From positions 1 through 64,000 of the forward strand of contig JARGOX010000010.1 of the NCBI GenBank assembly GCA_029233925.1: a DNA stretch of 64,000 nucleotides, read 5' to 3'. Positions within the stretch are counted from its first letter, which is position 1. Each line of letters starts with the position of its first letter. This DNA comes from Rhizobiaceae bacterium (GTDB taxonomy: Bacteria; Pseudomonadota; Alphaproteobacteria; Rhizobiales; Rhizobiaceae). A program made the position numbers and the translations under genes. The notes below the pieces were generated by a model. That model made no database searches and was not told the DNA's origin. It saw nothing but the letters and a program-made list of their open reading frames with translations. Shown here in pieces: positions 29,262-47,499 of this stretch.

Positions 29262-29280
29262 TTGATGAATATTTTGGGTA

Positions 29281-30429: not shown

Positions 30430-30462
30430 AGATTTCCTCCCAAAAATCGAAGCACAATTGCT

Positions 30463-30651
30463 TCATCTATTCCGTTTGCTTTCAGTGTCTTCAGCCGCCC
30501 GTTTCAGGATCGCAGCCACGAAGAATACCGAGGTTGCAAACAGCAACAGCATTTCCCCAACATCCCCGACGAGCGGAGAATTGGAGCTTGAACCCAAGAC
30601 AACATTGCCAATGAATGCTGCAAAAAACACACCTGAAATGGATAACAACAT
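30463..30651 (-). CDS. Small two-helix membrane protein at the head of the DHPS operon
   Basis: The product is 62 aa. GGAGAAACC stands right before the ATG at 30651, an excellent ribosome site. Two hydrophobic segments are visible (residues 2-20, LLSISGVFFAAFIGNVVLG; residues 33-50, EMLLLFATSVFFVAAILKR), joined by a short SSSNSPLVGD loop and ending in a basic tail. It is the first gene after the operon promoter and lies 33 bases before the TRAP receptor gene. I do not recognise a family. A helper or regulator of the TRAP permease is a guess from position. Confidence 0.75.
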   Translation of the reverse strand: MLLSISGVFFAAFIGNVVLGSSSNSPLVGDVGEMLLLFATSVFFVAAILKRAAEDTESKRNR

Positions 30652-30689
30652 GGTTTCTCCTGTCGATGATCTGATGCTGGTTCAAGTGA

Positions 30690-30753
30690 TTTGTAAGCTG
30701 TTACATTTTGAAATGCAAGCTGTTACATTCACAATATGTAACAGCTTGCATTT
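30690..30753. promoter_or_regulatory. Divergent DHPS/lacI promoter with three LacI-like operators
   Basis: Three TGYAA-N4-TTRCA sites lie at 30692-30705, 30714-30727 and 30737-30750, with centres 22 and 23 bases apart, about two helical turns. The last two form a perfect inverted repeat with 18-base arms (30711-30728 and 30736-30753). On the minus strand, TTGCAT (30718-30713) and TACAAA (30695-30690) are 17 bases apart, so the first site covers the -10 and the second the -35 of the DHPS operon. On the plus strand TTGAAA at 30708-30713 may serve lacI. Confidence 0.8.
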
Positions 30754-30850
30754 GCTGATGTGGTTGCTGTCACCAAAAGAGCTTTCACTCAGGTGGATCG
30801 AAGGATACAAATCGGTAAGCAGCGAAACAGCGATTTTACGGGGGCAGAAG

Positions 30851-31998: not shown

Positions 31999-32316
31999 TC
32001 ATTCGTCACCCACGACACGCACAATCATGCCATTGAGCTCTTCTGTCACCGTGACCTGACATCCAAGCCGGGAGTTCGGCTTTCTGCTGTCCGAGAAGTC
32101 CAGCATGTCTTCCTCGTCATCGACGGGGGCGCCGGTGATCTTGAAATGAGGCTCTTCGATATGGATGTGGCAGGTGGCGCAGGAGCATTGGCCGCCGCAT
32201 TCCGCGGCAATGCCCTGAATATTGTTGCGCACCGCGACTTCCATCACCGACAGTCCGAGGGTGGACTCCACGATCTTTTGCGTTTCGTCCGGTTCGATAA
32301 AGGTGATCGTCACCAT
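31999..32316 (-). CDS. [2Fe-2S] ferredoxin of the aromatic dioxygenase system
   Basis: The product is 105 aa with GGAGAAGACAAA before the ATG. It is an adrenodoxin/putidaredoxin-type ferredoxin; the cluster ligands are in AAECGGQCSCATCHIHIEE and the last cysteine is in NSRLGCQVTVTEEL. It would pass electrons from the FAD reductase (35551-36798) to the Rieske dioxygenase (alpha at 38851-40224, beta at 37454-38020). It is the final gene of the dioxygenase operon, 39 bases after the aldehyde dehydrogenase. The plant-type fold rather than a Rieske ferredoxin places the system in the group of three-component dioxygenases with a [2Fe-2S] Cys4 ferredoxin. Confidence 0.9.
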   Translation of the reverse strand: MVTITFIEPDETQKIVESTLGLSVMEVAVRNNIQGIAAECGGQCSCATCHIHIEEPHFKITGAPVDDEEDMLDFSDSRKPNSRLGCQVTVTEELNGMIVRVVGDE

Positions 32317-32355
32317 TTTGTCTTCTCCAAATTCAAAATGCCATTCGACCGCGGC

Positions 32356-33840
32356 TCAGGCCGTGCGGATCCAGGCAGTCTTTCGTTTCTGATATTTCTC
32401 GATTGCCGCAAATGAGCGATCAAAGCCGTTGCCCGATTGCTTGTGTCCCACCAGGGGGGCGGTGATATCCGCGCCGCCATAACAATTGACGTGGACCACT
32501 CCGGCCTGAAGCCGCTCGACCATGCGATGCGCACGGGAAAGATTCTGGGTCCAGACCCCCGAAGCAAGTCCATAGGTTGTGCTGTTTGCCAGCCTGACAG
32601 CCTCTTCCTCGTCGCGGAAGCGCTGCACCGACAGGATCGGACCGAAGACCTCTTCCTGCACAATTGGGCTGTTTTCGCTGCTTGCCTCGATAACGGTTGG
32701 GCGGAAGTAAAAACCCTCTGCCGAGATGGGGTCGCCACCGGCCAGTACTTTGTCACCGGCCTGCCTGGCACGCTCCACGAAAGCGCTGTTCTTTTCCAAT
32801 TGTGCTGCAGTGCCAATCGCACCAGACTGACTGCCAACGCTAAGGGGATCGCCGACGATGGTCTGATCCGCAGCCGCGCAAATATGGGTAAGGAATTCGT
32901 CGTAGATTGCGTCCTGCACCAGCAGCCTGCTTGCGGCAACGCAAACCTGCCCGGAATTGGCAAAGATCGCGCGGGCGGACTGGCGCGCCACGGCGGCCAG
33001 GTCGCCGCAATCTGCGAAAACCACATTCGGTGATTTGCCGCCCAGTTCCAGATGCACAGGCTTGAAGTTGGAATCGGCGGCGTAGTGCAGCAGTTGACGG
33101 CCGACAGCGCCGGAGCCGGTAAAGGTGAGAACATCGACGTCATTGCTCAAGGCGATTATTCGTCCGGCAGAGCCGCGCCCGGTGACCACGTTGAACACCC
33201 CATCGGGAACGCCCGCCTCGCTGGCCAGTTCGGCCAGCTTCAGCAATGTGAGGGAGGCCGCCTCGGATGGCTTGAGCACCACGGAGTTCCCGGCAGCCAG
33301 CGCCGGGGCACTTTTCCAGGCCCCGATCATCATGGGGAAATTCCAAGGAACGATGGCACCGACCACCCCGGCAGCTTCGCGATGGATCAGACTGAGGATC
33401 CCGGGAGCGGTGGGCGTGATATCTCCGTTCATCTTGTCGAGCGCTTCGGCGTAGAAGCGGAACGTTGCCGCCGCGCTGCCAGGTTCTGCGCCGATGGCCA
33501 TGGAGATTTCAGTGCCATTGTCACGTACACCCAGCACCGCAAGTTCCAGAGCGTCTCTTTCAATCAGTGCGGCAAGGCGGAACAGAGTGGCCTTGCGTTG
33601 CGCCGGGGCCATGCGTGACCAAACGCCGGCCTCGAAGCTGCGCCGCGCCGCGGCGATGGCGGTTTCGACATCGGCCTCGCTACTGTCGATGAGCGTTGCG
33701 ATTGGTGCGCCCGTACCGGGGCTTGTAACGTCCATACGGTCGCCACCGGCGCTGGATCGCCATTCACCATCGATAAAGTTTTTCATGTCGCCGAGCGGCC
33801 GGTCGCGCAGGGCGTCGATACGGGTCTGGTCCAGAGCCAT
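32356..33840 (-). CDS. NAD(P)-dependent aldehyde dehydrogenase
   Basis: The product is 494 aa, the standard length. The general base is in HLELGGKSPNVVFADCGDLA, the catalytic cysteine in ANSGQVCVAASRLLVQD, and the cofactor loop in LTFTGSGAVGRQLLHYAA. It lies between the ThDP enzyme gene (14 bases upstream) and the ferredoxin gene. Together with a 2-oxo acid decarboxylase this suggests oxidation of an aldehyde, possibly a benzaldehyde-like compound, to the acid. The substrate is inferred from context; sequence alone supports only a broad class. Confidence 0.88.
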   Translation of the reverse strand: MALDQTRIDALRDRPLGDMKNFIDGEWRSSAGGDRMDVTSPGTGAPIATLIDSSEADVETAIAAARRSFEAGVWSRMAPAQRKATLFRLAALIERDALELAVLGVRDNGTEISMAIGAEPGSAAATFRFYAEALDKMNGDITPTAPGILSLIHREAAGVVGAIVPWNFPMMIGAWKSAPALAAGNSVVLKPSEAASLTLLKLAELASEAGVPDGVFNVVTGRGSAGRIIALSNDVDVLTFTGSGAVGRQLLHYAADSNFKPVHLELGGKSPNVVFADCGDLAAVARQSARAIFANSGQVCVAASRLLVQDAIYDEFLTHICAAADQTIVGDPLSVGSQSGAIGTAAQLEKNSAFVERARQAGDKVLAGGDPISAEGFYFRPTVIEASSENSPIVQEEVFGPILSVQRFRDEEEAVRLANSTTYGLASGVWTQNLSRAHRMVERLQAGVVHVNCYGGADITAPLVGHKQSGNGFDRSFAAIEKYQKRKTAWIRTA

Positions 33841-33854
33841 CGTGATTGTCTCGC

Positions 33855-35525
33855 TTATTTCGCAAAGAGGTTGTCGTAGTTGACGTCGCTGCCGCCGCCC
33901 ATCGGTCGCAGGCGCAGGAAAGGCCAGGGGTTGGCCAATTTGCCAACGGGCACTTCCACCAGGACCGGTCCATCCGTTTGCACGCTTTGGCTGAGAGCAG
34001 CCTCAAGTTCGGTCGGTGAGGTCGCACGGGTAAAATCGATACCGAAGGCGCTTGCCAGCTGTGCGAAATCCGGGTTGCTGAGTTCGGTGATGTAGTTGCG
34101 CCCGAAGGTCGATGACTGGATCGAACGCACATTGCCATAGTGGCCATCATTGAAGACCACCAGTGTCACCGGAAGATTGTAGCGTCTTGCTGTTGCCAGT
34201 TCCTGCATCGACCAGCCAAATCCGCCATCGCCGGTGATTGAAAAGACCCGGCGTCCGGCCCCGCCCACGGCAGCGCCCAGCGCCGTGGGAAAACTGTAGC
34301 CCAGCGTTCCCTGATAACCGGGGCCGATAATCGTACGCGGTTGGCGGCACTCGAAGGCAATCCGGGCAAAATAACCCACCTGTGTCAATTCGTTGACGAA
34401 AATGCCGTCATCGGGCAGCGCATCGCGCAGCGCTTTGACATAGTGCCACAATGTGCCGGTTGCCTCGATTTGATCCTGTGCCCAGCGTTTGATGCGTGTC
34501 GCCGTTGCCGCATCAAGAACCGTGCGCGGTGACACGGCTTCCGCCAGCGCGCGCGCGCCGACAGCCGCATCGGCCGCGATTTCCACCGCCGCTTTGCGCG
34601 GGTTGGTCATGTCCGTGGGGTCGATATTGAGGTAGATGTAGGTCTTGCTGTCCTGCGGCCAGCTGGGCTCCGGTGTCATGATGTCCATGAAACGCGAACC
34701 GATGACGAGAACGACATCGGCGCGTGAAAAAAGCGGACGACCGGCAAGCGACGTAAAGGAAAGGGCAGCACTATCGGGTATGGCGCCGCGCCCGTTGTCG
34801 CTGGCAATGACTGCCGCACCCATGCGTTCGGCAAGGGCCAGGATGTCAGCGCCCGCGTCCATCGCGCCGCCACCAATATAGATCACCGGAAATTCAGCGC
34901 CGTCGAGCAGCTTTGCAGCCTTCTCGATGGCCTGGGGATCGATGTTTGTGCCCGGTACGCCTGATGCTTCGGCGGCAGGTGCATTTGGTGCTGAGCGTGC
35001 CATCAGTATGTCGAAGGGAACTTCCACCGTCGCCGGTCTGCGCCGTCCTTCCATCGCGCTGTTGAACGCATTGGAGACAGCGCCGGGTATGCGCCCGGCA
35101 TCCATGACCAATTCATGGGATTTTGACAATCCCCGCAAGACGCCACTCTGATCGGGAATTTCGTGAAGGTTGCCATATCCCTTGCCGATTGCCTGCGAGT
35201 GGATCTGACCGACGAGAAAGACCACCGGCGAATTGCAGGCATATGCGGTGCTCAGGCCGGCGGTGGCATTCAGCATGCCTGGACCAGGCACCACCATGCC
35301 GACACCCGGTCGCCCGGTAACCCGCGCGTAGCCGTCGGCCATATAGCTTACGGATTGCTCATGGCGTGGCACGAAGACAGAAATATCCGGCCGTTGCGAA
35401 AGCGCATCCACGGCCCAGTCGAGCTGGATGCCGGGAATTGCAAAGAGCGTGTCGGCGCCATTCTCGATGAGCGCGGTGCAAAGCGCCTCGCCCCCGGTAG
35501 GCAATTTGGTCTTCGGGTCAGACAT
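33855..35525 (-). CDS. Thiamine diphosphate enzyme (acetolactate synthase/benzoylformate decarboxylase-like)
   Basis: The product is 556 aa from the ATG at 35525; the longer open frame to 35651 enters the reductase gene. The catalytic glutamate lies in VPRHEQSVSYMADGYARVTG, and the ThDP motif GDG...N in ITGDGGFGWSMQELATARRY and VFNDGHYGN. The middle domain binds a nucleotide in relatives. Family members include acetolactate synthase, benzoylformate decarboxylase and oxalyl-CoA decarboxylase. Beside an aldehyde dehydrogenase and a Rieske dioxygenase, a 2-oxo acid decarboxylase is the best guess; no branched-chain amino acid genes or regulatory subunit are present. Confidence 0.85.
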   Translation of the reverse strand: MSDPKTKLPTGGEALCTALIENGADTLFAIPGIQLDWAVDALSQRPDISVFVPRHEQSVSYMADGYARVTGRPGVGMVVPGPGMLNATAGLSTAYACNSPVVFLVGQIHSQAIGKGYGNLHEIPDQSGVLRGLSKSHELVMDAGRIPGAVSNAFNSAMEGRRRPATVEVPFDILMARSAPNAPAAEASGVPGTNIDPQAIEKAAKLLDGAEFPVIYIGGGAMDAGADILALAERMGAAVIASDNGRGAIPDSAALSFTSLAGRPLFSRADVVLVIGSRFMDIMTPEPSWPQDSKTYIYLNIDPTDMTNPRKAAVEIAADAAVGARALAEAVSPRTVLDAATATRIKRWAQDQIEATGTLWHYVKALRDALPDDGIFVNELTQVGYFARIAFECRQPRTIIGPGYQGTLGYSFPTALGAAVGGAGRRVFSITGDGGFGWSMQELATARRYNLPVTLVVFNDGHYGNVRSIQSSTFGRNYITELSNPDFAQLASAFGIDFTRATSPTELEAALSQSVQTDGPVLVEVPVGKLANPWPFLRLRPMGGGSDVNYDNLFAK

Positions 35526-35550
35526 TTGTTTTCCTCGCTCATGTGCGTGC

Positions 35551-36798
35551 TTAGGCAGCCGCAGCCGCCTGTGTGTCTTTTGTGGGGATGTCCTTGATCG
35601 GCAGGTCTGGATCGGCCAGGGCGATCTGGTCGGGCGATTGCCCTTTTGCAAGCCAGCGCTTGCCCATCATATAGGCCTTTGCGTCATTCATCGCGTCAAC
35701 GGCCAGCAGGCGTTCACCGATGAAATACCACAGCGAAATGGCGCCGGGTTTTTCGCCGGGACGTGTGACGACATGGTCAAAACCCCGATTGAATCCGGCA
35801 ATCTTGAGTGAAACGTCATATTGATCGGACCAGAACCAGGGTTCAGGCAAATAGTTTGCCGGCGCCTGCCCGAGAATGTGTTCGGCCACGTATTCGCCCT
35901 GATCGCAGGCATTCTGGACCGACTCGAGCCTGGTCATCTCGCCACGGAAAGGAAAGGCGGCGCAGTCGCCGATGGCGTAGATGTCCGGATCCGAGGTCAG
36001 GCAGCTTTCATCTGTCAGCACGCCGTTCTCGACGAAAAGCCCGGCTGAGCGCGCCAACCGATCGTTTGCGCTGACCCCGATGCCCGCGACCACAAGATCG
36101 ACGCCGACTGCCGAGCCATCGCTCAAGGCGGCAAGCGTGGCACGGTTCCCGTCAGCGATGAGCCGCTCGAGCCCAACGCCTTCGCGCAGGTCAACACCTC
36201 GGTCAAGGTGAAGCTTGCGAAACCATTGGGCGGTTTCGTGTGCGGCAACACGGTTCAAGATCCGGTCCTGCATTTCAATCAATGTGACTTCGAGGCCAAG
36301 ATCAATCGCGACTGCCGCCATTTCCAGGCCAATGTATCCACCGCCCACCACCAGCAACCGCTGGCCGGGGCGCACCTCCCCAGACAGCAGGTCAGCGTCT
36401 GCGAGGGAGCGGCAGGTATAGACGTTTTCGAGATCGCCGCCGACGCTTGCCGGCAGGCAGCGCGGCGTTGCGCCAGTCGCCAGGATCAATTTGTCGTAGA
36501 CAATTGCGCCCCTGTTGCTGGTGGCGACGTGTTTTTTCAGTCGGTCGATAAAGTGGGCCTGGGTCTCGCGGTGAAGGGTGATCTTCAGATCCTGATAAAC
36601 CTCTTCGGGGCGCAGGTGCAGCCTTTCGCGATCAAGCTCGCCCTTGAGGTATTTTTTCGAAAGCGGTGGCCTTTGATAGGGCAGGCCAGGCTCTTCGCAA
36701 AGAATCTCTATGCTGCCTTCGAAGCTCTGGGAGCGAAGGCGCAGGGCGGCTGAGACGGCGGCCTGACCACCGCCGATGATCACGACGCGTTGGGTCAT
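35551..36798 (-). CDS. FAD-dependent ferredoxin reductase
   Basis: The product is 415 aa from the ATG at 36798. Two dinucleotide-binding motifs are visible: VVIIGGGQAAVSAALRLRS for FAD and LLVVGGGYIGLEMAAVAIDL for NADH; DIYAIGDCAAFPFRGE is the second FAD contact. This is the rubredoxin/putidaredoxin reductase-like family that reduces ferredoxin for dioxygenases. It lies eight bases after an unknown gene (36806-37222) in the dioxygenase operon and would serve the ferredoxin at 31999-32316. Confidence 0.9.
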   Translation of the reverse strand: MTQRVVIIGGGQAAVSAALRLRSQSFEGSIEILCEEPGLPYQRPPLSKKYLKGELDRERLHLRPEEVYQDLKITLHRETQAHFIDRLKKHVATSNRGAIVYDKLILATGATPRCLPASVGGDLENVYTCRSLADADLLSGEVRPGQRLLVVGGGYIGLEMAAVAIDLGLEVTLIEMQDRILNRVAAHETAQWFRKLHLDRGVDLREGVGLERLIADGNRATLAALSDGSAVGVDLVVAGIGVSANDRLARSAGLFVENGVLTDESCLTSDPDIYAIGDCAAFPFRGEMTRLESVQNACDQGEYVAEHILGQAPANYLPEPWFWSDQYDVSLKIAGFNRGFDHVVTRPGEKPGAISLWYFIGERLLAVDAMNDAKAYMMGKRWLAKGQSPDQIALADPDLPIKDIPTKDTQAAAAA

Positions 36799-36805
36799 TT
36801 GATCC

Positions 36806-37222
36806 TCATCTGAAATCGTCGGTGAGGTAGTCTTCTTCCCACTCACCAATGGAAACCTTGACGCGAATTTCACTGAGGACATCGCATTCGAGCGTCACCG
36901 ATCCTGCGGGCTCGCCCGAGTTGGCAAGGTTGGCCACCTCATTCGAGAAAATCCAGGCGTAGTTCTTTGGCAGACGCCAGACCAGGTCCGTTGCGCCCTT
37001 TTCGACCTGCCACAACCCGGGATTCCGTTCACCCTCAAGGTCGATTTCCTCCAGTGTGACCCTTGTATCAGTAGAGAACACACCGGCATCATTCAGCACG
37101 GCCTTGCCGCCCTTCTGGGAAAAGGCCTCCAGCGCATCAGCGAGGATCAGAAGTTGTTCGGGGGTGCCGAGAACCAGCAGAATCGGATGGAAATCGCTCG
37201 GCATGTAGCTCATGCGTAACAT
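36806..37222 (-). CDS. Uncharacterised protein of the dioxygenase operon (138 aa)
   Basis: The product is 138 aa. The ATG at 37222 has AGGAACG seven bases upstream. No signal peptide or membrane segment is seen. The sequence is acidic, with an N-terminal alpha/beta part (FHPILLVLGTPEQLLILADA) and a strand-rich C-terminal part (GSVTLECDVLSEIRVKVSIG) ending in EEDYLTDDFR. I do not recognise a family. It lies in the middle of the dioxygenase operon between a 65-residue protein and the reductase, with gaps of 11 and 7 bases, so its role is probably tied to the oxygenase. Confidence 0.7.
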   Translation of the reverse strand: MLRMSYMPSDFHPILLVLGTPEQLLILADALEAFSQKGGKAVLNDAGVFSTDTRVTLEEIDLEGERNPGLWQVEKGATDLVWRLPKNYAWIFSNEVANLANSGEPAGSVTLECDVLSEIRVKVSIGEWEEDYLTDDFR

Positions 37223-37233
37223 CGGCTCGTTCC

Positions 37234-37431
37234 TTACTCGGGTTCGTGGACTTCCTTGATGTCCTGGCTGTGGGCAAGTTCCTCTTCGCCATCATCGAAC
37301 ATCAGGCTGAGCCACTGACCGTCACCCATATTTTCAGCCACCTTTCCCGTGCGCCCATCAAGCAGCACAATCGTGGCGCCTTCGGGCACCTTGAGCAGGT
37401 CGGTGGTTGTATTCAGGACTAGTCGTGCCAT
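37234..37431 (-). CDS. Uncharacterised small protein of the dioxygenase operon (65 aa)
   Basis: The product is 65 aa from the ATG at 37431, with AAGGAG seven bases upstream; an in-frame start at 37569 would run into the beta-subunit gene. The sequence is a short strand-rich, acidic domain (ATIVLLDGRTGKVAENMGDG then a DDGEEELAHSQDIKEV end). No cysteine, signal peptide or membrane segment is present. It lies between the beta subunit and the 138-residue protein. Function unknown; chaperone, electron-transfer accessory or subunit of the oxygenase are all open. Confidence 0.7.
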   Translation of the reverse strand: MARLVLNTTTDLLKVPEGATIVLLDGRTGKVAENMGDGQWLSLMFDDGEEELAHSQDIKEVHEPE

Positions 37432-37453
37432 TTTCGGCTCCTTAGCAGCGTCA

Positions 37454-38020
37454 TCAGAAGAAAGTGGACAGGTTTTTGGCCTGCAGGATGTTCTGGTCGA
37501 GGAGGATCTTGCGGTGGCGGACTTTCCAGTCGCCATCGACCCGTACCAATCGGTCGTAGCGCTTGCCAACGAAGTTGTAGGTCTCGTATTCCACCCGGTT
37601 CAAATAGGTGTGGAAGCGGCAGGACGTGTGCACCTCCTGAGCGGAGGCCGCATCGGGGAGGGCTTGCAGCACCTGCACATTGGTAACCATATGGGTGGTG
37701 CGAGACAGCGGTTCCTCAGCATAGTGAACACCGGTGAGAATCTGCTCGACACGCTTGGTGACAGTCCACTTGTCCTCGTTGAACCAGCTGATGCCTTCGT
37801 CTTCACGGGTGTTCTCGCGTTCGGCGTGCTGGCCGAATTTGACATTGTGCCGCATGGGCATGAAATACCGCAGGTCTTCATGCAGCATGTCGAGCCATTC
37901 GGTAAAACGGCGGGTGTCGATGCATTCGGCTTCGTCGTAATAGAACTCTTCGATCTCACGGCGCAAAGTGTAATAGGCGTCATCGCGGAGGATGCGCGGG
38001 GTTTCGACGGTTGCGTCCAT
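37454..38020 (-). CDS. Aromatic ring-hydroxylating dioxygenase, beta subunit
   Basis: The product is 188 aa with GGAG before the ATG. It has the cone-shaped Ring_hydroxyl_B fold; typical segments are RREIEEFYYDEAECIDTRRF, TEWLDMLHEDLRYFMPMRHN and WKVRHRKILLDQNIL near the end. It stabilises the alpha subunit in an alpha3beta3 hexamer and has no metal of its own. It follows the SDR gene by 15 bases. The relatives are those of benzoate-, cinnamate- and biphenyl-type dioxygenases; the substrate cannot be read from beta. Confidence 0.88.
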   Translation of the reverse strand: MDATVETPRILRDDAYYTLRREIEEFYYDEAECIDTRRFTEWLDMLHEDLRYFMPMRHNVKFGQHAERENTREDEGISWFNEDKWTVTKRVEQILTGVHYAEEPLSRTTHMVTNVQVLQALPDAASAQEVHTSCRFHTYLNRVEYETYNFVGKRYDRLVRVDGDWKVRHRKILLDQNILQAKNLSTFF

Positions 38021-38035
38021 CTTGTTTCTCCTGGT

Positions 38036-38854
38036 TCAGGCGCGTTTCGGGAGCGGGGCCGATGACCCCTGATGCGCAAAGCACCCGACATCAATGACCG
38101 TGCCGGAAATGGCCTGGGCTTCGGGTGACATTAAAAAGCGGATGGTGCCGGCGAGATCCTGGCCATTCATGAAGCGGCCGGCTACCGTGCCGACGGCCTT
38201 GGCCTGAAGCTTTTGTGCATCGCCGGACACCCGTCCAAGACTCATGCCGGAGAGGATTCCGCCACCGCCCGGAATGACCGTGTTGACCGCAATCCCGTCG
38301 GCAAAGAAATCCAGCGCCAGAGAAGCCGAAAAGGCGAGCAAGCCCCCCTTGCTGGTGGAATAGGCCGCCATATTCGGTTTGCCATAGCCGGCGCCCGAGC
38401 CGACATTGACGATCCGCCCGCCACCGGCTGCAATCATGTGGGGCAGGGCGGCCCGGCACAATTGGTAAGGGCCTTTCAGATTGACTTCAAGAATGCGCTG
38501 GAACAGATCCGGCTCCGTGTCGAGAATCGTGCCGAGAGGACCAATGGCGGCATTGTTGACCACCCCGTGCAGCCGCGCGCCATCGCGCAGTGCGACCTCG
38601 ATGACATTGGCCACATCGCTTTGCGAGGTGACATCACCGGCGAGAAATTCAAGAGACAGACCTCTGGCCTGTGCATCTGCGTTCAGGGCGTCAACCGATG
38701 CATTCGCCACACTGGAGACGGGCGCCTTTTCAAGCCCGAAGCCAACGACCCGCCAGCCTGCCTCAGCCAGGTAAACGGCGATGTCGTGGCCGATCCCGAA
38801 GGTCGCTCCGGACATGACAATAGTGTCTTTGACCGATGCGGGCGTATTGGTCAT
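38036..38854 (-). CDS. SDR-family dehydrogenase (candidate cis-dihydrodiol dehydrogenase)
   Basis: The product is 272 aa. The cofactor motif is IVMSGATFGIGHDIAVYLAE, the catalytic serine lies in IVNVGSGAGYGKPNMAAYS, and YSTSKGGLLAFSASLALDF holds the Tyr and Lys. The start overlaps the alpha stop as ATGA, so it is made in step with the oxygenase. This position fits a cis-dihydrodiol dehydrogenase that re-aromatises the dioxygenase product to a catechol. Other SDR roles cannot be excluded. Confidence 0.8.
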   Translation of the reverse strand: MTNTPASVKDTIVMSGATFGIGHDIAVYLAEAGWRVVGFGLEKAPVSSVANASVDALNADAQARGLSLEFLAGDVTSQSDVANVIEVALRDGARLHGVVNNAAIGPLGTILDTEPDLFQRILEVNLKGPYQLCRAALPHMIAAGGGRIVNVGSGAGYGKPNMAAYSTSKGGLLAFSASLALDFFADGIAVNTVIPGGGGILSGMSLGRVSGDAQKLQAKAVGTVAGRFMNGQDLAGTIRFLMSPEAQAISGTVIDVGCFAHQGSSAPLPKRA

Positions 38855-40224
38855 TCCTCCGCCGCCTTTGGGGTGAAACGTTCGTCGCCCTTGCCCATGA
38901 GAACATCCCAGGGTTCCTGATCGAGATATTGCGCCCAGCGGCGGTAGAAGCCGACCGCCATATGTTCGGTCACCTGTTGCGAGACATCACCGCGCACTTC
39001 AATGCCGTTGACCACGGGGTTGAGCTCGCTGGCGCCCATGGACTGAGTGTAGTTGAAGTTGTGCCGGCGTGCGATCGTTCCCATGGAAGCCTTTGTGGCG
39101 TAGAGCCAGTTTTCCATGTCGTCTTGCTCGGTCATGCCCGCTGGACCTGAATAGCGCATGTAATAGGTCCGCAGGAAATCCTTGATCTTGGTCGGTGCAT
39201 CGGCGTCGACCAGGAAGAAGCGCCAGCCTTCGGTCTCATTGGCACTGTGCGGGTGCCAGGAGCACAGGCTGCGCGGTTGGCGACCGTGATAGGAGGTATT
39301 GGGGAAGATCGTGCCGACGAAGGGCAGGAACCGCGCGTCTTCGCCAAGACGGCGTTTGCGCTCCTCGTGGCAGTAGCGGAAGTAGTCGGCAATTTCGGGA
39401 TCGTTTTTGAACTGATCGACAAACTCATAGCCTTCAGGCTGCACCGCTGAATGCACGCCATGGCCTGCCGGAAAACTGCACCATACGTGCTGGGCCTGCT
39501 CGAGTTCATTGTCGCGCCGCCCTTTCACACCTTCCAGAGCCGAAGGGCCGATGCCGATCATGTCGACAGAGCGGTGGCTGGGGTTGTGATAGGTGTCGCC
39601 GAGAAAATTCTCGGCAGCAAATTTCCAGTTGGCAGGAAAAACCCATTTGTGCACGCCGATGACTTCCGAGCCGCCGGGCCGGCCATCGCGGCAATCCAGC
39701 GCCTGGTCGAGATGGATCTTCGCGTCACCCAGATAAGTCAGGAAATCCGGCGCATCAGGGTCCCAGGTTGCCCAGATCGTGCCCTTGTAGTTATGAAGCT
39801 TGGCGACCTCGACGAGCGACCACTCGTCCCTGTTGAGATTGCCATCATAGAGGGCTTTGTAGAGCGGAATGCCGCGGATGCGTCCGTCCGTCGTATAGGT
39901 CCATGAGTGATAGGGGCAGGTAAACAATGAAGTGTTGCCCGATTCGTAACGGCAGACCTTCATGCCACGATGGCGGCAGCTGTTGAGCAGAACGTGAATC
40001 ACGCCTGCCTTGTCGCGCACCAGAATGACCGATTCCTCGCCCATGCGGGATGTGAAGAAATCACCCGGATTGGGGATCTGGCTTTCATGGCCGACAAACA
40101 GCCATGCGCGGGTGAACAGCGTTTCCAATTCGCGACGGTAGACATCTTCGCTGACATAAATTTCGCGGCTGATCTGTCCGCGACGCCAGTCAACGAAATC
40201 CGCAGCCTTGCTCGGATGGGTCAT
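38851..40224 (-). CDS. Aromatic ring-hydroxylating dioxygenase, alpha subunit (Rieske)
   Basis: The product is 457 aa with AGGAGG upstream of the ATG. The Rieske cluster ligands are CRHRG in LLNSCRHRGMKVCRYESG and CPYH in SLFTCPYHSWTYTTDG. The catalytic iron site is in AAENFLGDTYHNPSHRSVD (two His; the Asp lies further on). It inserts both atoms of O2 into an aromatic ring with electrons from the ferredoxin and reductase of the same operon. It is the first gene of that operon; a promoter with an operator-like word lies at 40266-40293. Substrate unknown; neighbours suggest an aryl acid or aldehyde-derived compound. Confidence 0.9.
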   Translation of the reverse strand: MTHPSKAADFVDWRRGQISREIYVSEDVYRRELETLFTRAWLFVGHESQIPNPGDFFTSRMGEESVILVRDKAGVIHVLLNSCRHRGMKVCRYESGNTSLFTCPYHSWTYTTDGRIRGIPLYKALYDGNLNRDEWSLVEVAKLHNYKGTIWATWDPDAPDFLTYLGDAKIHLDQALDCRDGRPGGSEVIGVHKWVFPANWKFAAENFLGDTYHNPSHRSVDMIGIGPSALEGVKGRRDNELEQAQHVWCSFPAGHGVHSAVQPEGYEFVDQFKNDPEIADYFRYCHEERKRRLGEDARFLPFVGTIFPNTSYHGRQPRSLCSWHPHSANETEGWRFFLVDADAPTKIKDFLRTYYMRYSGPAGMTEQDDMENWLYATKASMGTIARRHNFNYTQSMGASELNPVVNGIEVRGDVSQQVTEHMAVGFYRRWAQYLDQEPWDVLMGKGDERFTPKAAEE

Positions 40225-40265
40225 GGCGATTTCCTCCTGAACTCATGGGGTGTTGCTTCAAAAGA

Positions 40266-40293
40266 AGTTAACATGTTTACTGTATATGTCAAG
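40266..40293 (-). promoter_or_regulatory. Promoter and operator-like element of the dioxygenase operon
   Basis: Minus-strand TTGACA (40293-40288) and TAACTT (40271-40266) are 16 bases apart. Between and overlapping them is GTAAACATGTTAAC (40281-40268), a palindrome with one mismatch. Thirteen of its bases recur at the TAXI receptor promoter (43324-43336). A MarR-type repressor at 44970 is the best candidate binder. Confidence 0.65.
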
Positions 40294-40319
40294 CGACGCC
40301 GTGGCAAAAACCCTGGATC

Positions 40320-42218
40320 TCATGCCCGTGCGGCGGCGGTCTTGTTTTGGTCGCTGGAGCTGGCCCGCGTGATAATCACCGCCAGTACAACCGCGATGAC
40401 TGTGACAAGGACGGGGGCCATGCCGTTGGTTCCCAGATAGGCGGTGGCGGTCATGACGGCGAGGCCGGCAACCATCATCAGCTTGCCGTAGAGCCAGCCT
40501 GGCACCGCGACCCTGGGGGCGGGAAGCATCGACAGTTTGAGCAGATAGGCCCCGGCAAGCGAGTTGGAGACCACGATCGCAATTTCCAGAGGCGTGCCTT
40601 CAAGCAGCAGTGCCGGGTTGTAGACCCAAACGAATGGCATGCAGTAGGCGACGATGCCGATGCGCATTCCAAGAAAGCCGGTCTGCCACATATTGGCCTC
40701 GGCCAGCCGCGCCGCGACGATACTGCCGATCGCGATTGGCGGTGTGACCATGCTCATCAGGCCGAAATACAGCAGGAACATATGTGCGGAAATCGGTGCG
40801 ACGCCGAGATCAATCATGGTCGGTGCAACAACGGTGACGAGCACGATATAAACCGCGGCCGTGGGCATCCCCATGCCGAGGATGATCGCCACCAGCGCAG
40901 AGAGCAGAAGCAGGGCGATCAGACCGTAGGCACTGGCCATATGGGTGAGCGCCAGAGAGAGTTGAAAAGCAAAGCCGGTGGAGTTCATAAGCCCGATGAT
41001 GACACCGGCAGCGCCACCAATCAGCAACAGGGGTCCAAGCTCACGGCCCAGATTGAACAGAGCGCGGCCCAGCAGGGGCAGGTCGTAGCGGAAGCCGATT
41101 TTCACCGAGTAGACCACCAGCATGGTTGCTGACGCGATCAGCGCACAAAGACCGGGATTATAACCCGTACCAAAGAGCATGTAGAACAGGACCGCAATTG
41201 AGATCAGGATTTCCCATCCACCCTTGAGCGTCTCCTTGACCGATGGGATCTCGGACTTGTCGAGCCCGGTCAATCCGTTGGCGCTGGCCATGGCATCGAC
41301 CTTGAAGAAGAGCACCAGAAAATAGAGAAAGGCAGGGATCGAAGCGGCAATGACGATTTCGGAGTAAGGCACCTGCAGCACTTCGGCCATGATGAAGGCG
41401 GTCGCACCCATGATCGGTGGGGCAATCTGGCCGCCGTTCGATGCCACGGCCTCGATCGCTGCGGCCTGGACCCGGGTCATGCCGGTGCGGATCATCATCG
41501 GGATTGTGAACACCCCGGTGGACATGATGTTGGCCACGGTCGAGCCGGACATCGTTCCGAAGAAGCCGGAGGCGACAATTGCCACCTTGGCCGGGCCGCC
41601 GCGACGGTGTCCGACGGCACCAAGTGCAAGGTTGTTGAAAAAAGTCATGCCGTTGGCGACTTCAAGCACCTTGCCGAAGACCATGAAGGGCAGCACCAGT
41701 GTGACGATCACCGTGATCACCAGGCCGGGAACGCCATTGCTGTCGGCGTAGAGGTAGAGGATTGTGCGCGTCGGCGCAAAAACAGAGGCTTCCAGCAGGC
41801 CTGGTATCATGTCGCCGAAGAAACCATAGGCGGCAATGACCCAGACCAGCGCGGCAATCACAATACCCATCGATTTGCGCAGGGCTTCAGCCATCAATAC
41901 CAGAGCGATGGCGCCCGGAATCCACATATCGGGCGTCCGGTAGGCCATGGTCACCATCCAGCCCTTGAAGTTGTAAGCGTACCAGATCCACGTTCCTGCA
42001 CCGGCCAGAGCAAGGATCAGATCAATAATTGGCAGTGTTCGGGGATAGGGATGCGACAACAGTCCACCGGCAACAGCCAGACCCAGCATGACGGCGACAA
42101 TCTGCTGTGTCACAAAAGAAAGCCCGAGCATCTGAGGCACGTTGAGCGCCCAAAGTACGCCGATCACCGGTGCGGCTATCACCGTCACGACGAGGACGAT
42201 GTGATTGATCCGTTCCAT
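40320..42218 (-). CDS. TRAP transporter fused permease (TAXI system)
   Basis: The product is 632 aa, with the small DctQ-like and large DctM-like parts fused, as is usual in TAXI systems. About sixteen or more membrane helices are seen; the large part has GFFGTMSGSTVANIMSTGVF, SNGGQIAPPIMGATAFIMAE and MSMVTPPIAIGSIVAARLAE. It pairs with the TAXI receptor gene upstream, which is separated by 78 bases and a strong stem-loop. Because it lies immediately upstream of the dioxygenase operon and shares its operator word, an aromatic acid is the expected cargo. Confidence 0.9.
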   Translation of the reverse strand: MERINHIVLVVTVIAAPVIGVLWALNVPQMLGLSFVTQQIVAVMLGLAVAGGLLSHPYPRTLPIIDLILALAGAGTWIWYAYNFKGWMVTMAYRTPDMWIPGAIALVLMAEALRKSMGIVIAALVWVIAAYGFFGDMIPGLLEASVFAPTRTILYLYADSNGVPGLVITVIVTLVLPFMVFGKVLEVANGMTFFNNLALGAVGHRRGGPAKVAIVASGFFGTMSGSTVANIMSTGVFTIPMMIRTGMTRVQAAAIEAVASNGGQIAPPIMGATAFIMAEVLQVPYSEIVIAASIPAFLYFLVLFFKVDAMASANGLTGLDKSEIPSVKETLKGGWEILISIAVLFYMLFGTGYNPGLCALIASATMLVVYSVKIGFRYDLPLLGRALFNLGRELGPLLLIGGAAGVIIGLMNSTGFAFQLSLALTHMASAYGLIALLLLSALVAIILGMGMPTAAVYIVLVTVVAPTMIDLGVAPISAHMFLLYFGLMSMVTPPIAIGSIVAARLAEANMWQTGFLGMRIGIVAYCMPFVWVYNPALLLEGTPLEIAIVVSNSLAGAYLLKLSMLPAPRVAVPGWLYGKLMMVAGLAVMTATAYLGTNGMAPVLVTVIAVVLAVIITRASSSDQNKTAAARA

Positions 42219-42246
42219 GAAACTCCACCCGGGCTAAACAATAGTG

Positions 42247-42280
42247 GCCTTTCCCGTCGTTCGCAGGTGACGGGAAAGGC
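42247..42280 (-). terminator. Intra-operon stem-loop after the TAXI receptor gene
   Basis: GCCTTTCCCGTC (42247-42258) pairs perfectly with GACGGGAAAGGC (42269-42280), loop of ten. It starts 17 bases after the receptor stop. There is no T-run. It likely limits read-through into, or protects the receptor mRNA from, the permease part. Confidence 0.7.
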
Positions 42281-42296
42281 TCTTGAGGTTTGAAGA

Positions 42297-43289
42297 TTAG
42301 AACCGAGCCTGGTTCGCTTCGTGCGCGTCGTTCCAGAGGCCGACTTCCTTGTAGAACTTGACGGCGCCTGCATGGTAGGGGATTGATGAGGTCGCAAGCG
42401 GCAGTTTGTCTTTCGGAACGCTGCGCAATTGGCCAATGTTTTTCTGCATCGTTTCCCAGTTGTCGTAGAGCGTCTTGGCCAGAGCGTAGGCATCATCATC
42501 CGAAATGGCTTCTGCGCCGACCAGAAGTGTATTGTAGGTCACAACGGGTGTTTCACCGATGATGTAGGGACGCTTTTCGTTCTCCTTGACGACGCCTGCG
42601 GATACACCAGCCACTGATTTGGCGAAGAATGCATCATTGCCGAGGCTGCCGTTGCCGACGATCCGCAGACCACCATCAACGGATGCCTGTGATTCAACCA
42701 GAACCGGCATGGATGTCGCCACCGGGGCAGCATCAGCGCGACCTTCAACAACGGCATTGATACCGTCCATCAGGCCACCACTGGTCATGAAATCGACATC
42801 CTCAAGCTTCAGCCCACCCGAAGCGACGATGGCCTTGTTGATCTCGGTCAGGGCCTGCGACGCAGGAAGTTCGCCCATCACGCGCTTGCCGCGCAGATCG
42901 TCGGCGGTCATGATGCCGGAGTCGGCACGGGTGATGAATGCGTAGGGAATGTTCCAGACGTTGGCGATGGCCCTCAGGTTGGGAAGCTTCTGCGGGTATC
43001 CGGCGCCGCCCGTATAGGCCAGGCCTGAGTCCACTGTCGATGCAAGTCCAAGTGTCATGTCGCCCACAGAGATGGCAGGCAGATAGACCGAAGACCCGGC
43101 AAAGGGCTGTGCATTGGTGCGAACACCCAGTTCTTCCTGGAACAGCTTCGCAAAGCCGCTTCCGATCAGGTAGAACGAGGACCCTGAGGGGTTTGTCCCG
43201 ATTGTTATGTTCTTGAATTCAGCCTGTGCTGGTTGCTGCAGAGTGCAGAATGCAACAGCTGCGAGGGCGATAGCTTGCTTGATTTTCAT
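42297..43289 (-). CDS. TAXI-family TRAP transporter solute receptor
   Basis: The product is 330 aa with GGAGGAAAAAC before the ATG. Residues 1-24 are a signal peptide (AIALAAVAFCTLQQPAQAE). The TAXI hallmark is NITIGTNPSGSSFYLIGSGF, followed by TNAQPFAGSSVYLPAISVGD, unlike DctP receptors. It feeds the fused permease downstream. Its promoter region is shared with the divergent FAD oxidase gene at 43467 and carries the operator word found at the dioxygenase promoter. Confidence 0.9.
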   Translation of the reverse strand: MKIKQAIALAAVAFCTLQQPAQAEFKNITIGTNPSGSSFYLIGSGFAKLFQEELGVRTNAQPFAGSSVYLPAISVGDMTLGLASTVDSGLAYTGGAGYPQKLPNLRAIANVWNIPYAFITRADSGIMTADDLRGKRVMGELPASQALTEINKAIVASGGLKLEDVDFMTSGGLMDGINAVVEGRADAAPVATSMPVLVESQASVDGGLRIVGNGSLGNDAFFAKSVAGVSAGVVKENEKRPYIIGETPVVTYNTLLVGAEAISDDDAYALAKTLYDNWETMQKNIGQLRSVPKDKLPLATSSIPYHAGAVKFYKEVGLWNDAHEANQARF

Positions 43290-43323
43290 GTTTTTCCTCC
43301 AATGAATAGTGCTTGCTTTCTAA

Positions 43324-43357
43324 TAAACATGTTAACCTTATTGCCAGGCGCCGTCAA
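43324..43357 (-). promoter_or_regulatory. Promoter and operator-like element of the TAXI operon
   Basis: Minus-strand TTGACG (43357-43352) and TAACAT (43334-43329) are 17 bases apart. The -10 lies inside TAAACATGTTAAC (43324-43336, plus strand), identical over 13 bases to the word at 40268-40281. The region is divergent with the FAD oxidase gene. Confidence 0.65.
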
Positions 43358-43466
43358 ATGGGAAAAACTGTTGTCAGTGTAAAATCGCAATTGGACCACG
43401 GCCTTATTCGCCAGTTAACAGGCCAGCCGATGGCGGTTTGGAGAACCTAGGAAAGAGTCGCAAAAA

Positions 43467-44864
43467 ATGGAAAAAATCATTGAAGAACTGAAGCTTATCG
43501 TCGGTGAAAAAGGCTGGTTGGCCGTCGAGGATGCTCCCGAAATGCTAGGCGATATCACCGGTTCCGGCGAAGATTGTTTGCTCGTTTTGCGACCGGAATC
43601 GACTGAGGAAGTTTCCAGAATCACCGCTGTGTGTTGTGCAAACGGGATTGCGATCGTGCCCCAGGGCGGCAATACGAACCTCTGCCGCATGGCAATTCCG
43701 ACAGAAAAATCACCGACAATTGTGCTCTCGCTAAAGCGGATGAACCGCATCATCGACCTGAATGTTGCCAATGCCACGGTGACTGTGGAAGCAGGCTGCG
43801 TGATGCAGGTGCTGCAGGAGACGGCGGCGCAAAATGGGCTGTTGTTTGCGCCTGATTGGGGCGCACGCGGCGCAGCAACTGTTGGCGGAGCGGTTGGCAC
43901 CAATGGTGGCGGGCTGAACGTTTTGCGCTACGGGACGACCCGTGAACAGGTGCTCGGGCTGGAAGTCGTGCTACCCGATGGTCGGGTGTGGAACGGCTTG
44001 CGCCGGTTGATAAAGGACAATTCGGGATTTGATCTCAAGCAATTGTTTATTGGCTCGGAGGGCACGTTGGGAATTATCACCAAGCTGGCCTTCAAACTGC
44101 ATCCCGAGCAGGCAGTGTCCCAGTCCATGATGGTTGCACTCTCGGATGTGTCGCGGTTGATCGAGCTCTATCAGTTGGGACGCCAGATTGCCGGTGAGCG
44201 GCTGGCAGCCTTCGAACTCATGCCAGGCATCGGCATCGAAAAAGCGCTGCAACGCTATCCGGACATCAAGCGCCCAATGGAGGCACGCGCCGATTGGTAC
44301 GTGCTCATTCGCATGTCTGATCGCGGCAGCGTGGAGGAGCACCTGATGTCTCTCTTCGAGCAAGGCTTGCACAGGGAGGTGATCGCTGATGGGGTGCTGG
44401 CGAGCTCCGGAACGCAGGAGCGAAACCTGTGGGAACTGCGCGAACAGATGATCCCGCATCAGTATTTCAAAGACTATACGATGCTCAAATGGGACGTGTC
44501 GGTCCCCGTTGATCGCATAGCTGATTTTCTGTTGTCTGCACAGGCGAAGGTGCATGGGCTTTGCTCTGATGCGATATGCTATGCAGTCAGTCACGTCGGG
44601 GATGGCAACATCCACTATACGGCCTATCTCGACCCTGAGATTGGCAAAACCGGCGTCAAGGATGAGATCTACGATGTCATCGATGAACTCATCTGGTCGT
44701 TTGGCGGCTCGGTTGTTGCCGAACATGGGGTTGGCGCGCTATTTCGCAATCAGGTCAAGCGCCAGAAGAGCGATGTTGAATACGATCTTCTGACCAGAGT
44801 GAAGGAAACATTTGACCCGCAGGGTCTCATGAATCCCGGAAAGATGCTCTTTGGTCGCGCGTAG
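43467..44864 (+). CDS. FAD-binding 2-hydroxyacid oxidase/dehydrogenase (GlcD-like)
   Basis: The product is 465 aa, an FAD-linked oxidase of the vanillyl-alcohol oxidase fold, GlcD/D-lactate dehydrogenase group. The FAD pyrophosphate loop is GIAIVPQGGNTNLCRMAIPT, and the conserved GARGAATVGGAVGTNGGGLN follows near residue 132; the C-terminal metal site is SHVGDGNIHYTAYLD and EHGVGALFRNQV. It oxidises a D-2-hydroxyacid to a 2-oxo acid. It diverges from the TAXI receptor and precedes a MarR gene. A D-mandelate-like or aryl-lactate substrate is inferred from the neighbouring ThDP enzyme. Confidence 0.87.
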   Translation: MEKIIEELKLIVGEKGWLAVEDAPEMLGDITGSGEDCLLVLRPESTEEVSRITAVCCANGIAIVPQGGNTNLCRMAIPTEKSPTIVLSLKRMNRIIDLNVANATVTVEAGCVMQVLQETAAQNGLLFAPDWGARGAATVGGAVGTNGGGLNVLRYGTTREQVLGLEVVLPDGRVWNGLRRLIKDNSGFDLKQLFIGSEGTLGIITKLAFKLHPEQAVSQSMMVALSDVSRLIELYQLGRQIAGERLAAFELMPGIGIEKALQRYPDIKRPMEARADWYVLIRMSDRGSVEEHLMSLFEQGLHREVIADGVLASSGTQERNLWELREQMIPHQYFKDYTMLKWDVSVPVDRIADFLLSAQAKVHGLCSDAICYAVSHVGDGNIHYTAYLDPEIGKTGVKDEIYDVIDELIWSFGGSVVAEHGVGALFRNQVKRQKSDVEYDLLTRVKETFDPQGLMNPGKMLFGRA

Positions 44865-44969
44865 ATCTTCGTTCGCTTGCGAATTGCAATCTGCGGGTGC
44901 GACTTCTATCCTCTCCATGATCCGGGATCCAGGGGCGAAAATCCAGAAAGTGAAACAGGCAATATTCGT

Positions 44970-45443
44970 ATGAACAAGTCCGAAAAGGCCGAAGAAAAAT
45001 ATAACAGAGTCATGGGTGATCTGAAATATATGGATCGTTCCCTTGCGATTGCCTGCACGCGCGGACGTGAAGCGGTGGTTTCACGGTTTCGGACCCTGCT
45101 GCACAGGCAGAAACTGTCTGAGCAGCAGTGGCGGGTGCTGCGGCTGCTCTGCGACCAGAATTCACTGACGGCGGTGGAAATCTCGGCCCGTTCCTGCATC
45201 CACAAGGTGAGTATCTCGAGGATTCTCAAATCTCTGGAACAGCGCAATATGGTTGAGCGGATCGCAAGCACCTCGGATCTGCGGGCGAGCTACGTGGTTC
45301 TGACTGAGCACGGCAAGGTGGTGATGGCGCCCTTGGTCGAAGAGAGCACCAGGATCAACAAGGGGATCGTTGAAGCCTTTGGCTACGAGGATTATGACAA
45401 GCTCCTGGTGCTTCTCAGGAAACTCTCTCACATCAACGACTGA
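44970..45443 (+). CDS. MarR-family regulator (HpaR-like)
   Basis: The product is 157 aa from the ATG at 44970; earlier in-frame codons have no better site. The winged helix is in residues 55-115 (QQWRVLRLLCDQNSLTAVEI, SRILKSLEQRNMVERIAS, DLRASYVVLTEHGK). It resembles the HpaR type that represses aromatic-acid catabolic operons and is released by the aromatic acid. It is downstream of the FAD oxidase in the same direction, and is the probable reader of TAAACATGTTAAC at 40268 and 43324. The ligand is unknown. Confidence 0.87.
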   Translation: MNKSEKAEEKYNRVMGDLKYMDRSLAIACTRGREAVVSRFRTLLHRQKLSEQQWRVLRLLCDQNSLTAVEISARSCIHKVSISRILKSLEQRNMVERIASTSDLRASYVVLTEHGKVVMAPLVEESTRINKGIVEAFGYEDYDKLLVLLRKLSHIND

Positions 45444-47157: not shown

Positions 47158-47499
47158 ATTTGTACCTTTCGATGCGGTCATTTTTCACGGACGGGCGTCC
47201 GTACGCGCCTGAGTGGCGTTTCGCCTACCTCCAGAAACGAAGGCTGCTGATGAACAGGAAGGCATCTCGCAGATAGCAACGCCAATCTCGCGAAATATTC
47301 CATCGCCCTTTTTCGGCAAGGCCCAATGTCCAATTATCGGACAAAATGTAAATCGAATGAATTCGATTGATCTTCATATTGCCTTGTGGAAGCCAAAAAC
47401 TGGACGCGAAAACCCTCCATTATTTCGTATTTCCTGAAATTGATGGTGACTATTGCAATTACTTATCTTGTTTAGCATTATGTTGGCAACGTCCATTAA
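47158..47499. other. Divergent intergenic region, monooxygenase/IclR
   Basis: About 340 bases without a recognisable gene; the part near 47400-47490 is A/T-rich and should hold both divergent promoters. I did not find a convincing inverted repeat that could be named an IclR operator. Confidence 0.5.

Follow-up and report, generated by a model that had tools for sequence, protein, structure and literature searches.

Gene content of the locus

The window analysed here is a 64,000-nucleotide stretch of DNA from a Rhizobiaceae bacterium (GenBank assembly GCA_029233925.1, contig JARGOX010000010.1, positions 1 to 64,000), designated C30 in a 43-contig genome of 6.1 Mb that is 99.4% complete. It carries a gene cluster built around a multicomponent Rieske dioxygenase. 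Profile matches identified at this locus all the families that the original prediction had named, namely a TAXI importer, an FAD oxidase, a thiamine diphosphate (ThDP) enzyme, an aldehyde dehydrogenase (ALDH), a three-component Rieske oxygenase and a short-chain dehydrogenase/reductase (SDR). The coordinates and supporting matches are presented in Table 1.

Eleven minus-strand genes form a compact run (31999-43289), in the transcription order TAXI receptor, permease, Rieske oxygenase alpha subunit (hereafter alpha), SDR, beta subunit, 65-aa protein, 138-aa protein, reductase, ThDP enzyme, ALDH and ferredoxin. Because intergenic distances within this run are -4 to 95 bp, the eleven genes are likely to constitute one operon. 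The beta subunit, the ferredoxin and the reductase are all encoded together with alpha. Promoter and terminator scans gave numbers close to the shuffled level (8 versus a mean of 6.3; 17 versus a mean of 14.9). The gene for the GlcD-type FAD oxidase lies on the opposite strand, with its start 177 bp from that of the TAXI receptor gene, and a MarR regulator gene comes after it; given their strand, these two genes cannot share the 11-gene transcript. Beyond the MarR gene lie a minus-strand gene for a class A flavin monooxygenase and then an IclR gene.

Table 1. Genes of the Rieske locus and its flank in the window, with the match or model on which each assignment rests (pLDDT, predicted local distance difference test).
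Feature	Coordinates	Strand	Evidence
TAXI-type TRAP solute receptor	42297..43289	-	TIGR02122 123.9 bits, cut-off 84.35
Fused TRAP permease	40320..42218	-	TIGR02123 455 bits, cut-off 320.65
Rieske oxygenase alpha, uncharacterised clade	38851..40224	-	PF00355 (1.5e-17), PF00848; tree; motif D-x2-H-x3-H
SDR, proposed cis-dihydrodiol dehydrogenase (putative role)	38036..38854	-	PF13561; 60/80 loci
Rieske oxygenase beta subunit	37454..38020	-	PF00866
65-aa protein, predicted small beta barrel	37234..37431	-	67/80 loci; model pLDDT 83
138-aa protein, predicted alpha/beta fold	36806..37222	-	41/80 loci; model pLDDT 90
Ferredoxin reductase, HcaD-like	35551..36798	-	PF07992, PF14759; HcaD model 302 of 450 bits
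ThDP enzyme PRK08266, proposed arylpyruvate decarboxylase (putative substrate)	33855..35525	-	661 bits, cut-off 571
Aldehyde dehydrogenase, proposed arylacetaldehyde dehydrogenase	32356..33840	-	PF00171
2Fe-2S ferredoxin	31999..32316	-	PF00111
GlcD-type FAD oxidase, proposed D-aryl-lactate dehydrogenase	43467..44864	+	PF01565, PF02913
MarR regulator (longest frame; ATG at 44970)	44877..45443	+	PF01047
Class A flavin monooxygenase PRK06126, proposed hydroxyphenylacetate hydroxylase (putative role)	45499..47181	-	696 bits, cut-off 445

The Rieske oxygenase clade and its iron site

The best NCBIfam model of alpha was HcaE, at 350.7 bits, which is below the equivalog cut-off of 830, and alpha shared 39% identity with a Vibrio HcaE across the aligned region. 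The closest solved structures were biphenyl, cinnamate and benzene dioxygenases (297, 290 and 287 bits). In a tree of 104 sequences, alpha fell inside an 86-member clade (support 0.96) that held none of the eight reference rows, among which only HcaE and two BphA rows are named as characterised enzymes and two repeat plasmid rows. This favours the earlier proposal, against which a grouping of alpha with a dioxygenase of known unrelated substrate would have counted. Its nearest relatives in the tree were from Hoeflea, Pararhodobacter, Acinetobacter, Marinosulfonomonas and Sulfitobacter. The plasmid relatives L013, L014 and L015 (loci are numbered with the prefix L) were outside the clade and were excluded from the inference of function.

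Every sequence shown in the motif alignment, the window alpha included, had the Rieske motif C-x-H-x(n)-C-x2-H. The two-histidine iron site of Rieske dioxygenases has the spacing D-x2-H-x4/5-H. The eight reference rows had H-x4-H or H-x5-H, whereas all 86 clade rows had D-x2-H-x3-H, so that the clade has one or two residues fewer between the histidines of the predicted iron site, both of which are present. An Arg directly after this motif (position 218 in the window alpha) was found in 84 of the 86 members. A distant alpha homologue of 45% identity, L009 (G138 C5 509711-511060), contained one in-frame TGA inside the match.

Conservation of the gene set

Contigs of GTDB were scanned with alpha, and the best 80 of the 307 relatives found, at 65-100% identity, were studied with their surroundings ("the 80 loci"); gene families were defined by a codon-usage gene caller and single-linkage clustering, which is loose. 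By record name, the clade occurs in bacteria from soil, from the sea and associated with plants, which belong to several classes of proteobacteria and to Actinomycetota. In a sample of the class, 6 of 289 genomes, including that of the window, had an alpha match at 1e-100.

The beta subunit was found in 79 of the 80 loci, the 65-aa protein in 67, the SDR in 60, the 138-aa protein in 41 and the flavin monooxygenase in 21, followed by the ferredoxin (15), the reductase (13), the ThDP enzyme (9), the GlcD-type oxidase (6) and the TAXI receptor (4). These counts are lower bounds because several loci end at contig edges. Cut pieces of a ThDP gene were present in L080, L029 and L052, in addition to the nine loci with an orthologue. 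Co-occurrence with alpha, which had been suggested as a check for the 138-aa protein and the ThDP enzyme, was seen in 41 loci for the former and in 9 for the latter. The side-chain module is optional.

The proteins of L016 (Rhizobiaceae metagenome-assembled genome (MAG) bin_ce_oilr1.030) were 87-100% identical to those of the window. The 11 genes, together with the GlcD-type oxidase and MarR genes, recur in Hoeflea NORP7 (L017) and Pararhodobacter CCB-MM2 (L018), with protein identities of 59-91% (51-59% for MarR), and this recurrence exceeds chance. The ThDP and ALDH genes lie inside the operon, between the reductase and ferredoxin genes, in both L017 and the window; in L018 the ALDH gene is relocated beside that of the flavin monooxygenase. 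The operon is real and conserved, and its link to a dioxygenase holds. A Sulfitobacter locus of 15.9 kb (L019) has the importer, the Rieske genes, the SDR and ferredoxins without the ThDP, ALDH and GlcD-type genes, and the side-chain module is therefore an extension and not part of the core.

The electron-transfer components also varied. A separate ferredoxin was encoded in 15 of the 80 loci (L016-L022, L024 and others), 13 of which also had the HcaD-like reductase, and a BenC-like one-piece reductase replaced the ferredoxin and reductase in 20 (L055, L062, L064, L068-L070 and others). The BenC-like reductase and the separate ferredoxin were never found together (0 of 80 loci); the oxygenase clade has thus changed its electron-transfer partner.

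Neither of the two small proteins reached a Pfam cut-off. Structure models were obtained with a mean pLDDT of 90 for the 138-aa and 83 for the 65-aa protein, and fold searches with these models gave no match at E ≤ 0.001. The 138-aa model weakly resembles Suppressor of fused (Foldseek E 0.011, probability 0.99, TM 0.47). The 65-aa protein, whose gene mostly lies immediately after that of beta, has a conserved E-N-M-x-D-G-x-W motif and is predicted to form a five-strand barrel.

Association with homoprotocatechuate genes

Genes of the homoprotocatechuate (3,4-dihydroxyphenylacetate) pathway (hpa) were detected by tblastn, with identity thresholds set by hand, in 11 of the 80 loci (L055, L064, L069, L072, L080, L081, L085, L087, L090, L021 and L017), sometimes in one run with alpha. 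These loci span three bacterial groups. Eight are Burkholderiales by record name (L055, L064, L072, L080, L081, L085, L087 and L090), and L069 is a proteobacterial MAG on the same branch as these. In L080 the genes alpha-SDR-beta-p65-hpaG-hpaG-hpaE-hpaD-hpaF-hpaH-hpaI-SSADH (succinate-semialdehyde dehydrogenase) follow one another on one strand. In L085, HpaG-C (351 bits, cut-off 276), HpaD (509, 316), HpaE (805, 638) and HpaH (446, 352) were all over their cut-offs, and hpaF, at 45 of 215 bits, was under. HpaI of L090 scored 387 bits (cut-off 369). The Nocardia locus L021 has HpaD (433 bits, cut-off 321) and HpaE (657, cut-off 638) on the strand opposite to alpha, and the Hoeflea locus L017 has an HpaI-like aldolase at 338 bits (under the cut-off of 369) and an SSADH-like gene whose match starts at residue 63. 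In Acinetobacter (L020), hpaG, hpaG, hpaE, hpaD, hpaF, hpaH, hpaI and an SSADH-like gene lie on the contig and strand of alpha, approximately 8.5 kb past the reductase gene.

The side-chain genes also occur next to hpa genes. In Variovorax WDL1 (L081), ThDP-ALDH-hpaG-hpaG-hpaE form one run divergent from the Rieske operon, and in L087, where hpaD, hpaG, hpaE, hpaF and hpaH are also present, the ThDP and ALDH genes overlap by 10 bp. A PRK08266 protein of Bradyrhizobium murdochi (L126, 10653-12278; 905 bits), whose gene is the last in an hpa run, was 40% identical to the Hoeflea ThDP enzyme; its position offers a clue to the PRK08266 subfamily.

The genome of the window has its own hpa cluster on contig C3, with the order hpaF-hpaE-hpaD-FAH-hpaH-hpaI. 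Four of these six genes were over their cut-offs (HpaE 781, HpaD 418, HpaH 374.6 and HpaI 374.5 bits), and no HpaB match was found in this genome at 1e-30. An iron-type HpaD (452 bits, cut-off 316) is encoded on contig C23, where the 20 kb retrieved contained none of the remaining hpa genes. This region (L098, 5303-13061) shows an apparent tandem duplication: iron-type hpaD is present intact and again as a partial copy of 143 aa, and each of the two adjoins a frame, these frames (308 and 609 aa) having the same start.

Marker proteins were tallied in 29 genomes, comprising that of the window and those of 28 loci chosen by hand from the 80, six of which had visible hpa genes at the time of choice, besides L017 and L021. 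HpaE was found in 21 genomes, iron-type HpaD in 13, HpaG-C over its cut-off in 10, HpaB in 12 and PaaA in 19. In view of this bias in the choice, the comparison is fairer for the 17 genomes that their record names place in Alphaproteobacteria: HpaE was present in 11 of these 17 alpha-carrying genomes versus 11 of the 289 genomes of the class, with the window's genome in both (Fisher p 8e-11 for 11/17 versus 10/288, kinship ignored). No HpaB match was found in 13 of the 21 HpaE-positive genomes, including that of the window. Of the genomes whose locus has the flavin monooxygenase, 2 of 14 had HpaB, fewer than among those whose locus lacks it (10 of 15; p 0.008, kinship ignored). This tally rests on PF03241, a broad family, and hints that the flavin monooxygenase may replace HpaB.

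Because hpa genes neighbour alpha in some loci, the product of the pathway is probably homoprotocatechuate rather than the catechol originally proposed. Another part of that proposal, a module leading from hydroxyacid to oxo acid, aldehyde and acid that is joined to a dioxygenase and an SDR, was supported, so that the pathway idea was half right; the hpa link and the flavin monooxygenase had been left out of it.

Side-chain enzymes and flavin monooxygenase

The ThDP protein was over the cut-off of PRK08266. Its second-best model was 5-guanidino-2-oxopentanoate decarboxylase (341 bits, cut-off 500), and acetolactate synthase TIGR00118 was fourth, at 296.5 bits against a cut-off of 538. An identity as acetolactate synthase was rejected on this score, in line with the earlier expectation that the enzyme is not a true member of that family. 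Benzoylformate decarboxylase PRK07092 (cut-off 493) was not among the best 25 of 54 models, and the lowest of these 25 scored 198 bits. The ALDH was under every equivalog cut-off among the 25 models listed. The FAD_binding_4 and FAD-oxidase_C domains of the GlcD-type oxidase were over cut-off, and the glcD equivalog cut-off was not reached (265.7 of 567.9 bits); the closest structure was the putative oxidoreductase 3pm9, followed by D-2-hydroxyglutarate and D-lactate dehydrogenases.

The optional nature of the side-chain genes raises the alternative that the ThDP enzyme, ALDH and GlcD-type oxidase perform a separate side task, for example on arylpyruvates or arginine-type 2-oxo acids, and are tied to the Rieske pathway only by a common promoter or location. 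The second-best ThDP model is consistent with this, as is the lack of side-chain genes in most loci, L019 included. However, in the window and in L017 the operon includes the ThDP and ALDH genes, and in L081 and L087 these two genes have hpa genes as neighbours; a separate task is regarded as improbable.

The structure closest to the flavin monooxygenase was RebC. Orthologues of 58-92% identity lie beside alpha in 21 of the 80 loci; the single-linkage cluster contained 22, from which L046 (27% identity) was excluded. A class II aldolase-family gene (L068, 14644-15375; PRK07044, 300 bits, cut-off 207) was present in 12 loci, often adjoining that of the flavin monooxygenase. An isoflavone (ifc) reading of the flavin monooxygenase, based on the available part of PMC11069340, was set aside but not disproved, the other ifc genes not having been searched for.

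Proposed pathway and alternatives

The operon is proposed to be catabolic and to funnel phenyl-substituted short acids into homoprotocatechuate meta-cleavage, a proposal in which our confidence is evenly balanced. The TAXI-TRAP transporter would take up an aromatic acid, the GlcD-type oxidase would convert an aryl-lactate to the arylpyruvate, the ThDP enzyme would decarboxylate this to the arylacetaldehyde, and ALDH would yield the arylacetate. The alpha-beta oxygenase, with its ferredoxin and reductase, would then add O2 at ring positions 3,4, the SDR would re-aromatise the cis-diol to homoprotocatechuate, and the C3 hpa cluster of the same genome would open the ring. The flavin monooxygenase may take hydroxyphenylacetates to homoprotocatechuate in place of HpaB. 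We infer all of the substrates, the 3,4 position, and the roles of the flavin enzyme and of the 65-aa and 138-aa proteins.

A more specific form of this proposal is put forward tentatively, as possible rather than probable: that the clade is a phenyl-C2-acid (phenylacetate) 3,4-dioxygenase which, with the SDR, provides a coenzyme A (CoA)-independent aerobic route from phenyllactate, phenylpyruvate or phenylacetate to homoprotocatechuate, parallel to Paa, and which has its iron ligands spaced more closely and works with two small accessory proteins of a new kind. The clade as a whole may have more than one substrate, or several phenyl-C2-acids may be accepted at the Rieske step.

The original prediction envisaged mandelate-like logic. 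The hpa neighbours suggest that the logic is probably phenyllactate-like instead, one carbon longer than mandelate, although benzoylformate decarboxylases encoded in L083 (5323-6915) and L084 (5332-6927), near the usual place of the ThDP gene, keep the earlier idea alive (724 and 717 bits, cut-off 493). Their genes adjoin TctC and IclR genes, and the L083 protein was closest to solved benzoylformate decarboxylases. On that alternative, mandelate, or dihydroxymandelate produced by the Rieske oxygenase and SDR, would be converted via an arylglyoxylate and a benzaldehyde to benzoate or protocatechuate. Protocatechuate 3,4-dioxygenase-like pairs in three loci also agree with it: in L044 (16005-17277) alpha and beta were both over their cut-offs, in L029 (2755-4094), where the pair adjoins the GlcD-type gene, alpha was over and beta under, and in L052 such genes were recognised by clustering only. 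Set against this, 11 of the 80 loci carry hpa and not benzoate or protocatechuate genes, and the window ThDP enzyme lies outside the benzoylformate decarboxylase family; we judge a mandelate-type pathway unlikely. Since 3,4-dihydroxy rings are the substrates of hpa and protocatechuate enzymes alike, the 3,4 position is weighted above the nature of the side chain.

The benzoylformate decarboxylases and protocatechuate genes weigh against the homoprotocatechuate proposal, and so do several further observations. No hpa gene was present in the fetched flank of 69 of the 80 loci, many of which end at contig edges, and most loci lack the side-chain genes (ThDP enzyme in 9 and GlcD-type oxidase in 6 of 80). 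HpaE was absent at the set limit from 8 of the 29 genomes (L029, L044, L046, L050, L052, L059, L055 and L064); L055 and L064 do show hpa genes in the locus, HpaE of L055 being cut by the contig end. The window's own hpa cluster sits on another contig than the Rieske operon, and two of its genes, FAH (172.8 of 276.4 bits) and hpaF (31% identity), are named by similarity only. The 17 alphaproteobacterial genomes with 11 HpaE positives include the near twin L016 and five Bradyrhizobium, a kinship that the counts ignore, and at most five candidates were scored per genome in the class background search for HpaE. PF03241 misses another known type of 4-hydroxyphenylacetate hydroxylase. Lastly, PaaA, the marker of the Paa route, was found in 19 of the 29 genomes, including that of the window, and phenylacetate therefore has another route.

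This last point is relevant to a further alternative, in which the Rieske oxygenase acts on a 4-substituted arylacetate (carboxy, sulfo or chloro) and the substituent is lost to give homoprotocatechuate, with the ThDP enzyme, ALDH and GlcD-type oxidase preparing that acid. A 4-chlorophenylacetate 3,4-dioxygenase is a known enzyme, and most of the 29 genomes already have Paa for plain phenylacetate. TAXI and TctC receptors, moreover, often carry aromatic or dicarboxylic acids (compare the available part of PMC6362003). On the other hand, the SDR is kept in 60 of the 80 loci, which suits a plain cis-diol, and no desulfonation or dehalogenation gene was noted, none having been searched for. A 4-substituted substrate thus seems rather doubtful.

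Comparison with known systems

The usual feeder of the hpa pathway is an HpaB-type flavin hydroxylase acting on 4-hydroxyphenylacetate. The window shares with this pathway the proposed central intermediate and the presence of an hpa cluster, both in its own genome, where ring-cleavage genes are present, and beside relatives of the operon; it differs in having a Rieske oxygenase, an SDR and a class A flavin monooxygenase with no HpaB match in its own genome. The 3-phenylpropionate/cinnamate system HcaEFCD/HcaB is similar in combining a multicomponent oxygenase with an SDR, and its HcaE and HcaD are the best models of alpha and of the reductase, respectively. However, the window alpha reached 351 of 830 bits and has a shorter iron-site spacing, and two extra small proteins and other neighbours are present. 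The side-chain chemistry would be that of the mandelate pathway if the oxidase, ThDP enzyme and ALDH act in series, but the window has a GlcD-type oxidase, a PRK08266 protein in place of benzoylformate decarboxylase, and a joined dioxygenase.

The structure 7yls, which we take to be IadD, was a far weaker match to alpha (2.6e-33, rank 21 of 42) than biphenyl dioxygenase (2.8e-87). The auxin iad operon of Variovorax resembles the window in encoding a Rieske oxygenase system for an arylacetate-like acid, as described in the available parts of PMC10374108 and PMC12633357. An indole-acetate reading was dropped in view of this distance and of the better fit of the hpa genes.

In the opa o-phthalate cluster of Pseudomonas PTH10, TRAP transporter genes accompany a four-gene Rieske dioxygenase and a dihydrodiol dehydrogenase, according to the available part of PMC6362003. 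OpaAa is AntA/BenA-like (30% in PMC6362003), meta-cleavage genes lie inside that cluster, and its gene table lists no ThDP enzyme or hydroxyacid oxidase. A phthalate reading was rejected, as the portion of the source available shows only the kind of transporter and the general layout in common with the window. No link of the operon to arylmalonate decarboxylases was found in the available part of PMC4996985. As originally suggested, no described operon with the full set came to light: in the open-licence literature, covered mostly by title-level listing, no publication was recognised as describing this gene set or oxygenase clade.

At 22793-31903 the window contains a sugar-acid block, with a LacI regulator, TRAP receptor and permease genes, a histidinol-dehydrogenase-like gene, an alcohol dehydrogenase gene and altronate/galactarate dehydratase-like genes, which is probably separate from the Rieske operon.

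Biological implications

Phenylacetyl-CoA is usually given as the intermediate of aerobic phenylacetate breakdown, and flavin hydroxylases acting on 4-hydroxyphenylacetate are the usual source of homoprotocatechuate. Judging from gene content, the likeliest product of the present operon would be homoprotocatechuate, formed from phenyllactate-, phenylpyruvate- or phenylacetate-type acids. If true, this would be an undescribed bacterial way to use phenylacetate-type compounds. A Rieske route to homoprotocatechuate would represent an additional feeder enzyme, would account for the hpa genes of genomes without detected HpaB, and would give a function to a widespread oxygenase clade. As phenylacetate is also a plant auxin, possible effects on plants would be of interest for the clade members of Bradyrhizobium and Variovorax.

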